From: Candidatus Omnitrophota bacterium
Lineage (GTDB): Bacteria; Omnitrophota; Gorgyraeia; Duberdicusellales; 4484-171
Length of the DNA stretch: 48,647 nt
Assembly: GCA_023135905.1 (NCBI GenBank)
Contig: JAGLSE010000012.1
Location: 1-48,647, forward strand
Direction: 5' to 3'
A program made the translations under genes and the position numbers. This document shows, in pieces, positions 9,166 to 12,037 of the stretch; position 1 is the stretch's first letter, and the number at the start of each line of letters is the position of its first letter. Under the pieces are notes generated by a model. The model was not told the DNA's origin. It saw only the letters and a list, made by a program, of their open reading frames with translations, and ran no database searches.

Positions 9166-9966
9166 TCACCGGTTTAATTTTACAATTACTCTCTCAAATC
9201 TTAAATCGAAATATTCTACTAAAGAAAGTTTATCCTTAAAATATACTTGAATTTCTTCCCTCAGTTTTTCTAATCTTTTTTGAAATTTCCCATCTCCAAT
9301 TTTAACCATTATATCTTTTTTGAAAAATTTTTTATTCTCATCTAAAATATTTAATTCCAAAATAAAATATAATGCTTGAATAGAAGAAGAATTTATCGAT
9401 TTTATTTTAGAATCTTTGAAAAACTCATTATCTTTAAAAGCCCTAACCAAATTAACTGAACTTCTTACTTTTTCATTAATAACTTCATCCCCAATCTTAT
9501 AATACTGTTCATAATTACTAGCTTCAATAGAAATCAAACCTTCGTATGGATTAGATTGGCCATTAGTTAAAACTATTAAATCTACATCTATAGGATAAAA
9601 CTTTTTCCCCTTAATTTGAGCAAATAACTCTCTTTTTTCAACTTCAATAATCAAAGATGACGGAAATTTTTTCACAACAGACACCTTTTTAAAGATAGGG
9701 TTACGCTCAAGAATATCTGCCGAAATAGCTTTAATATCTATTACGAATAAAGACTGACCCATTATTCGATTTAAAATATTTTTATCTAATTGAACATTAC
9801 AATGAATACTTCCTTTTTTTACCCTAAAATTATCAGATTTATAAACCATAAAACCTGTACCACCAAAAATAAAAATTAATAAAATAAAAAACACACTACC
9901 CTTAATAAGGGTAGGACTAATTTTAAAAGGCAAATACTTAATCTTTTTTTTCTTTCTCTTTCTCAT
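9166..9966 (-). CDS. ftsQ: Cell division protein FtsQ (POTRA domain)
   Basis: Basic N-tail, single TM, POTRA-like NPIFKKVSVVKKFPSSLIIEVEKRELFAQI; located between ddl and the ftsA-like gene. Confidence 0.85.
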   Translation of the reverse strand: MRKRKKKKIKYLPFKISPTLIKGSVFFILLIFIFGGTGFMVYKSDNFRVKKGSIHCNVQLDKNILNRIMGQSLFVIDIKAISADILERNPIFKKVSVVKKFPSSLIIEVEKRELFAQIKGKKFYPIDVDLIVLTNGQSNPYEGLISIEASNYEQYYKIGDEVINEKVRSSVNLVRAFKDNEFFKDSKIKSINSSSIQALYFILELNILDENKKFFKKDIMVKIGDGKFQKRLEKLREEIQVYFKDKLSLVEYFDLRFERVIVKLNR

Positions 9967-10877
9967 AAAGTCAACTCCGCCATCTTTAATATTAGATTAT
10001 CAAAATTTAAACCACAAGCTGCAGCAGAAAGGGGTAAAAGGCTATGTGACGTTAAGCCGGGTATAGAATTAACTTCTAAAACGAATAACCTATTATCTTT
10101 GGCTAATATCATATCTACACGCGAAAAATGACGACAACCTAATTCATTATGAGCCAAAACCCCAGTTTCTTGAACCTTTTTATAAATACAATCTTCTAAT
10201 TCTGCCGGTACTATAAAATCTGTTTTTAAGTCACCATATTTATTATCAAAATCAAAGTAACCTTTCTTAGGCTTTATTTCTATCACCGCTAAAGGTTTTC
10301 CATCTAAAATACCTACTGTCAATTCTCTGCCCTGAATATAACTTTCTATAATTATTTCATGACTATATGAAAAAGCTAAATCAAAAGCTGATTTTAATTT
10401 CATTTGTTCTTTTACAATAGATATACCTAAGCTTGATCCCGAACAAGAAGGTTTAATCACTACCGGTAATTCCATATTTCTAGGTATATTTTTAAATTCT
10501 GTACAAATTGAAAAGTCCGGTGTCGGAACATTAGTCTTTAAAAAAATGCTTTTTGCTAAAACCTTATCCATAGATATAAGGCTAGATAAAGGCCGAGAAC
10601 CCGTATATGGAATATTTATATCTTCTAAAACCCTTTGAATTCCGCCATCTTCACCGAATCCACCATGAAGAGCTATGAACGCTAAATCCAGATTATAAGA
10701 AATTATTTGGTCCCTAATTTTATTATGACAAGTATTGGAAATATCAATGAAAACCGCATCTAATTTCTTCCTCCACAATACCTCCAATACTCCTTTAGCA
10801 GAAATCAAAGAAATTTCTTTTTCTCCGGATACACCTCCGCCTAAAACACCTATTTTTTTATTTTTTAACAAATTCAT
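9963..10877 (-). CDS. ddl: D-alanine--D-alanine ligase
   Basis: KKIGVLGGGVSGEKEISLISAKGV, ALHGGFGEDGGIQ, EVNSIPGLTSHSLLP. The likely start is the internal ATG (MNLLKNKKIG); the longer ORF start at 10913 runs into a repeat. Confidence 0.93.
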   Translation of the reverse strand: MNLLKNKKIGVLGGGVSGEKEISLISAKGVLEVLWRKKLDAVFIDISNTCHNKIRDQIISYNLDLAFIALHGGFGEDGGIQRVLEDINIPYTGSRPLSSLISMDKVLAKSIFLKTNVPTPDFSICTEFKNIPRNMELPVVIKPSCSGSSLGISIVKEQMKLKSAFDLAFSYSHEIIIESYIQGRELTVGILDGKPLAVIEIKPKKGYFDFDNKYGDLKTDFIVPAELEDCIYKKVQETGVLAHNELGCRHFSRVDMILAKDNRLFVLEVNSIPGLTSHSLLPLSAAACGLNFDNLILKMAELTL

Positions 10878-10885
10878 ATTACAAT

Positions 10886-10969
10886 AGACCTCAGACATTA
10901 GACTTAAGACCACAGACTAAAAACAATAGACATTAAACATTAGATTTAAAACCCCAGACTAAAAACTAA
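10886..10969. repeat. Degenerate heptanucleotide tandem array, 12 in-phase units (ARACNNN)
   Basis: AGACCTC AGACATT AGACTTA AGACCAC AGACTAA AAACAAT AGACATT AAACATT AGATTTA AAACCCC AGACTAA AAACTAA, exact 7-nt register over 84 nt. Confidence 0.9.
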
Positions 10970-11182
10970 AAATATAATAAATCAAAACAAAAATACAAAA
11001 TTAAAAACAAAAATTAAATTATTCTGTAGCTACACACTATATTGTGTCTAACTATATTGTCCATTTTAATCATTAATAATATTTGCGTTTAACAAAAGCT
11101 AAAATTATTCTACACCGCATAGCAATATATAATTCTTCTTTTTTTCCTATGAGCTAAATACTGCCCGCTAAGAGCTTCTTCT

Positions 11183-12037
11183 CTATGTCCATCTTATAAC
11201 TTCTTCCTCCAACTCTACGCACTTCTCAGCCAAAACAGTTTTCTTTATTTTTTGAATTAAAAAATCTATATCCTCATACTTTGCCGAACCACGATTAATA
11301 ATATAATTTGCATGTATATGTGAAATTTGAGCATCATTATATTTAATTCCTTTTAATCCACTAGAATCGATTAAATAACCAGCACTTACATCTGGAGGAT
11401 TTTTAAAAACTGAACCACAGCTAGGATAGCTATAATCCTGAAAATCATACCTTTTAAGTATAATATTTTTAATAGCTCTCCTCAAACAACTATTACTCAA
11501 AAACTTAAATCTAGCCTTTAAAATAACAACATTTTTAAGAGATGAATATCTATATCCAAAAAAAATATCATTTTTCCTAAAAGTATTAGTATTTCCTCTT
11601 TCATCTATAGTATCCACTTCCACAAGATAAGACGATAAAGCTGTTCCAAAAGAGGAAGCATTCATACGTATCAATCCGCCTATCGTCCCCGGAATACCAG
11701 CTAAATTTTCTATTCCGCCAAAATTATTTTTAAGGCAAAATTTAAGCAAAGAAGATAAAGAAGTAGAACCTCCTACCTCAACATAATCATCACTCCTGCG
11801 AATACGATTAAATCCTTGACCAAGTTTTAATATTGGCGTTGTTATCTTTCCATCATTTATAAGTAAATTTGATCCTCCCCCCAATATATAAAGATTAAAT
11901 CCATAATCTTTAATAACGGAACCAACTTCTTTAGTGCTATTAGCAATTATTAATAAACTTGCTTTACCTCCGACTTTATAGGTATTAAACTTTTTTAGAT
12001 CAACATCGCGCTTTAATTCGATATTTTTTAAATTCAC
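11183..12037 (-). CDS. murB: UDP-N-acetylenolpyruvoylglucosamine reductase
   Basis: NTYKVGGKASLL, LGGGSNLLI, NLAGIPGTIGGLIRMNA, SYPSCGSVFKNP. Confidence 0.95.
   Translation of the reverse strand: MNLKNIELKRDVDLKKFNTYKVGGKASLLIIANSTKEVGSVIKDYGFNLYILGGGSNLLINDGKITTPILKLGQGFNRIRRSDDYVEVGGSTSLSSLLKFCLKNNFGGIENLAGIPGTIGGLIRMNASSFGTALSSYLVEVDTIDERGNTNTFRKNDIFFGYRYSSLKNVVILKARFKFLSNSCLRRAIKNIILKRYDFQDYSYPSCGSVFKNPPDVSAGYLIDSSGLKGIKYNDAQISHIHANYIINRGSAKYEDIDFLIQKIKKTVLAEKCVELEEEVIRWT

Follow-up and report, generated by a model that had tools for sequence, protein, structure and literature searches.

The window analysed here, a stretch of 48,647 nucleotides (positions 1-48647) from a Candidatus Omnitrophota bacterium, carries a long cell-wall and division cluster running from mraZ to an ftsA-like gene, with nearly all genes on the minus strand and a steady GC skew of about -0.3. 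In it, murB (11183..12037, minus strand) and ddl, which encodes D-alanine-D-alanine ligase and occupies 9963..10877 (minus strand) when taken from its homologous start, are separated by a gap of 305 nt (10878..11182), and all genes around this gap are on the minus strand. The gap contains a heptad array of the form (ARACNNN)x12 (10886..10969, plus strand), which starts 8 nt upstream of the ddl start codon, reads away from ddl, and appears on the coding strand as (NNNGTYT)n just upstream of the gene. The first six units are AGACCTC, AGACATT, AGACTTA, AGACCAC, AGACTAA and AAACAAT, and the last six are AGACATT, AAACATT, AGATTTA, AAACCCC, AGACTAA and AAACTAA. The anchor columns are therefore A in 12/12 units at position 1, G in eight and A in four at position 2, A in 12/12 at position 3 and C in 11/12 at position 4, with the spacers at positions 5-7 being mixed and containing no G. 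A sequence-only reading of the window had described twelve phased 7-nt units with ARAC in 11 of 12, and both a recount and the composition statistics confirmed this, with at least 11/12 ARAC in phase having a probability of 6e-19 under the local base composition and an expectation of 3e-14 across the window.

Lag-7 identity delimited a segment at 10886-11018 with a score of 30, and no other period in the window came near this value except the multiples 14 and 28. None of 5000 Markov-1 shuffles of the gap reached this score, with the maximum being 16. The distal part of the segment (10970..11018, plus strand) is an A-rich and more decayed continuation of the period-7 similarity, matching the degenerate AT-rich extension towards 11018 that had been suspected. 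TRF also described the array as an imperfect 42-bp (6-unit) duplication with 86% matches. The array was also said to force a spurious 5' extension of the ddl open reading frame and this is real, as the longest frame starts at a GTG at 10913, inside the array, compared with the homologous start at 10877.

Among 30 family members the murB-ddl spacing is mostly 0-50 nt, which indicates that the 305-nt gap was gained in this lineage. Longer gaps are lineage-specific and several contain heptad arrays of other words, with GCTC-type heptads occupying the gap in G009 (L065) and G026 (L059), and CAGA-type heptads forming an inverted pair in G031 (L058). In the window, a possible second and eroded heptad stretch was seen by eye at the murB edge (AGCTCTT AGCGGGC AGTATTT AGCTCAT; 11149..11176, minus strand), although it is weak and falls below the score threshold. 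A quasi-palindrome, TAGCTACACACTATATTGTGTCTAACTA, lies at 11027-11054 in the same gap.

The window array has the features of a dispersed heptanucleotide repeat of the STRR kind, with a 7-nt tandem period, an intergenic position and an occurrence at several genomic places. However, its unit ARACNNN matches none of the published units GGGANTN, GGGGA(C/T)T and TAACTGA, and we therefore file it as an STRR relative by architecture only. Further phased arrays do exist in its own genome (G000), which was surveyed as samples of contigs, as ARACNNN x4 is present at two other places (C36 and C89) together with heptad arrays of other words. Using intergenic samples from five genomes of ~29% to 63% GC, we detected 8-40 arrays at period 7, against 0-4 at other periods (leaving aside period 14, a multiple, and period 8, with up to 8 arrays) and 0-2.4 in shuffles, with the excess being weakest in the AT-rich genome of the window (8 against 2.4 in shuffles). 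ARACNNN x5 was found in 20/58 relatives and AGACNNN x6 in 13/145 genomes sampled across the phylum, with spacers ranging from perfect to fully degenerate. AGAC was considered as a single special word and ruled out, since each genome has many words. In G051, G042 and G071, a reversed control pattern was far commoner than AGAC, which reflects abundant heptad words of their own. As a measure of dispersal, the likeness of the window array to the array at G001:C22 was set aside, being only marginal beyond the anchor (369/20000).

We evaluated the polarity of 58 intergenic AGAC arrays, partly chosen by pattern and with gene edges taken from longest open reading frames, and in 48 of these the 5' end of the AGAC strand was the end closer to a gene edge (binomial P=5e-7). 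The median distance was 6.5 nt from the edge at the 5' end against 96.5 nt at the other, and genome G022 was an exception (7/13). The 48/58 count scored the window array by the spurious ddl frame, but from the true ddl start it follows the rule. Outward polarity of this kind would be expected if the arrays were inverted pairs filling a gap. In G003 the arms of a gap are more complementary to each other than to the arms of other gaps (0/200 swaps), and heptad-bearing gaps of both G003 and G026 fold better than chimeras of gap halves, whereas in the window's own genome this folding signal and an inverted-arm signal between gap arms were absent. A purine-rich outward strand was tried as a general rule and dropped, its signal being weak and confined to G003.

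The leuC-leuD gap of G032 (gene names assigned by eye) contains an AGAC array, a truncated four-helix-bundle open reading frame and an inverted AGAC array, and the protein belongs to the 23S_rRNA_IVP family (PF05635, IVP). IVP/S23 proteins are known from inserts in 23S rRNA, but to our knowledge they have no established role and no catalytic activity. PF05635 was found in 8/8 genomes with 1-8 copies each, in 33/37 family members and in 49/78 phylum members, with none in 14 well-known control genomes. We aligned the sequence preceding each IVP start with the reverse-complemented sequence that follows its stop, using the other IVPs as control. For the 46 best-scoring IVP loci the own-arm alignment had a mean of 16.3, against 9.5 with the arms of other IVPs (z=19), and an arm score of at least 12 was reached by 72% of IVP loci compared with 11% of 270 other short open reading frames. 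In this 46-locus set period 7 was detected in 45% of IVP flanks against 9% for other short open reading frames, with other periods at 0-3% except for 10% at period 8. Likewise, a second set of 27 best-scoring phylum-wide loci gave z=13.6, and 54% of its flanks showed period 7. These results indicate that IVP genes of this phylum commonly lie between inverted one-word heptad arms, often within operons. Aligned arms were 17 to 71 nt long (median 31), and a fixed five units per arm, as a match to a pentamer, was unsupported. Related IVPs with the AAGCTAT word were observed in three genera (L216, L217 and L228), at different gene junctions next to or within operons for the oligopeptide ABC transporter (opp). 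Most heptad arrays, nevertheless, have no IVP beside them (16-40 arrays in the samples, compared with 1-8 IVPs in each genome), and some may therefore originate independently of an IVP.

Three array sites were compared between the window's own genome and the sister species G001. At the first (G001:C22 / G000:C119) a 5-unit array faces about four changed units between conserved flanks, at the second an array in G000:C89 is missing at G001:C209, and at the third (G000:C36 / G001:C164) a five-unit AGAC arm is common to both with two spacer changes. This shows arrays being gained, lost and altered by steps of 7 nt. The earlier opinion that simple slippage of a single repeated unit does not account for the window array stands, as the array is a member of a genome- and phylum-wide class that changes in 7-nt steps with changing spacers, as at the first site. 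Selection on the anchor, which had also been suggested, was not demonstrated in the window copy, as the third site is the one clean orthologous pair and the position of both its substitutions in spacers is not significant. At G001:C164 two AGAC arrays form both arms of an IVP element, situated between a gene ending KGYPARIYP and miaA, with an arm score of 20 against a shuffled mean of 10.7 and a shuffled maximum of 20.4 (2000 shuffles). At the orthologous site of the window's own genome the AGAC left arm is kept beside a different IVP, with inner and right arms of GACGAGG/CTTCGTC, and this genome thus contains a solo AGAC arm. Each of the two sister species has its own, unrelated IVP at this junction (L075/L187, L074), and G003 has a third heptad word there (L137), which marks the junction as a recurrent insertion site.

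Beyond the phylum, the IVP at C36 has a relative of known structure in Xanthomonas campestris (XCC0516; 2GSC). The entries for this protein and for another IVP relative, 2RLD, each contain five chains, a number compatible with a pentamer. A tblastn search of plasmids with part of XCC0516 gave matches mainly in cyanobacteria, mostly Nostocales, a group known for heptanucleotide STRRs. Among 14 best-scoring plasmid IVP loci, 13 of them cyanobacterial, the arm comparison gave z=7 and period 7 was present in 68% of flanks, compared with 9% for other open reading frames on two of these plasmids. Several of the plasmid IVPs are bracketed by (GTAGGGA)n/(TCCCTAC)n, (GGTGACA)n/(TGTCACC)n, (ACAGGGA)n/(TCCCTGT)n and similar arrays. 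The cyanobacterial STRR analogy offered by the sequence-only reading is therefore closer than was thought, with STRR-kind arrays on cyanobacterial plasmids flanking the same protein family. Cyanobacterial plasmid IVP genes at L266, L267, L269 and L273 were observed to split nrdB-nrdA, cas6-cas4 (in two species) and cas10-cmr3, and IVP elements thus insert within CRISPR-cas operons. No IVP relatives were found in viral contigs.

We then compared IVP and arm sequences across genomes. For 51 two-armed elements IVP similarity correlated with arm similarity (rho 0.24; 0/2000 permutations, ignoring shared ancestry of sites), as it did between the window's own family and other families (rho 0.28; 0/1000 permutations, again ignoring shared ancestry). 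Below 0.5 protein similarity the correlation was not significant (109/1000), which limits tracking of the word to clearly related IVPs. Furthermore, IVP/word pairs that closely resemble each other occupy unrelated sites, by an epimerase-like gene (L245), before a gspF-like gene (L230) and between pilN- and pilO-like genes (L250; all names assigned by eye). Such pairs recur as a mobile unit would, and the heptad-armed IVP element is widespread and apparently mobile.

We consider it reasonably probable that the window array is a decayed solo arm of such an element, and the window copy itself is probably inert. The intact element consists of two inverted one-word arrays of degenerate 7-nt units (e.g. 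AGACNNN ... NNNGTCT) around one open reading frame for the small four-helix-bundle IVP. It is inserted between adjacent genes, in many cases within an operon, and its arms lie a few nt away from the stop and start codons on either side. Derivatives that are shorter keep the arms and lack the IVP, and relics keep one arm. An element or derivative probably entered the murB-ddl junction, with the surviving arm adjoining ddl and the remainder lost or eroded to A/T-rich sequence, and lengthening and shortening in 7-nt steps together with AT-biased point mutation could have produced the conserved phase and variable spacers. We infer that each IVP reads its own word in 7-nt register, so that the anchor would be maintained as the spacers drift, and that the protein may also drive spread of the element; by analogy with the 23S rRNA IVS, the arms, once transcribed, may pair into a stem and be processed. 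The polarity, position and word of the array and the gained gap argue for this reading, but the gap contains no second inverted arm of the AGAC word, no IVP open reading frame or relic (hmmsearch best E 0.07) and no hairpin, with the array and the gap folding no better than shuffles (z +0.99 and +0.29). In addition, no intact element was seen at the orthologous junction in the relatives compared.

The main rival explanation is a heptanucleotide repeat that formed locally through 7-nt slippage of unconstrained DNA, with duplication of unit blocks and AT-biased decay and with no relation to an IVP. The internal 42-bp duplication of the window array, runs of identical units present in other heptad arrays and the change in unit number at an orthologous site would all agree with this, and a slippage origin of heptamers has already been proposed (PMC4692102). 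However, we regard it as unlikely, if still a serious contender, because AGAC is a recurring word in the phylum and appears at unrelated sites, arrays have polarity from gene edges, and inverted arms surround IVPs. That a ddl regulator reads the ARAC/GTYT anchors in phase, either on DNA or in the mRNA leader, would explain conserved anchors with free spacers just upstream of ddl, but we find this improbable, as other family members have no array at ddl, arrays neighbour unrelated genes, stop edges are favoured over start edges (38 against 20), and presence varies within a genus. An RNA hairpin, terminator or processing site between murB and ddl has an echo in the folding gaps of G003 and G026 and the complementary arms of G003, but is barely credible here and was ruled out as the identity of the array by its shuffle-like folding and the missing signal in its own genome.

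Returning to the solo-arm reading, a wider proposal can be put forward tentatively and is plausible without being probable: STRR-kind heptanucleotide repeats, at least in this phylum and in cyanobacteria, might be the arms and multiplied solo arms of one class of IVP-encoded mobile elements, in which each IVP, perhaps as a pentamer, would read its own word in 7-nt register, with the array serving as a multimer binding site that drives spread. Catalogues of heptanucleotide repeats exist for cyanobacteria, Xanthomonas and others, without agreement on origin or function. A limited literature search found no published link between such repeats and IVP genes. What is new here is that inverted arms of period 7 flank IVP genes both in an uncultured phylum and on plasmids of cyanobacteria, and that among related proteins the word tracks the IVP lineage. 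The link between arm and IVP offers one testable answer to both puzzles, the repeats and the proteins, in the form of a cognate protein-repeat pair spreading between operon genes, and as Nostoc and Anabaena carry heptad-armed IVP loci, laboratory study is possible.

Among known systems, the 23S rRNA IVS with an S23p/IVP open reading frame, e.g. in Coxiella burnetii, has been described as a selfish element, and RNase III cleaves its terminal stem (PMC4990558). The elements described here share with it inverted terminal repeats around one IVP-family open reading frame in a transcribed region, but they lie between protein genes (the window array itself is between murB and ddl and not inside 23S rRNA), their arms consist of degenerate arrays of period 7 whose words are specific to the lineage, and solo arms outnumber full elements. 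The GGGANTN and GGGGA(C/T)T heptanucleotide repeats of Xanthomonas and Nostoc, for which function was reported unknown and no IVP connection was drawn (PMC4692102), are likewise dispersed and intergenic, with a conserved anchor and free positions, convergent pairs and a location close to one gene edge. However, the words here are not G-tracts, and no quadruplex is therefore expected. Cyanobacterial STRRs are also intergenic and dispersed with period 7, and arrays of their kind bracket plasmid IVP genes, but their words are different and the window array is more degenerate and single-armed. The TAACTGA repeats of Beggiatoaceae and others, for which a translational role was proposed, are intergenic heptamer arrays often near start codons, and differ in having one fixed unit (PMC4679880), unlike the arrays here. 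Finally, as a functional analogy only, the short inverted intergenic repeats of REPIN-RAYT (PMC3116915) also exist as many solo copies with few accompanied by a cognate protein gene, although the units here are period-7 arrays.
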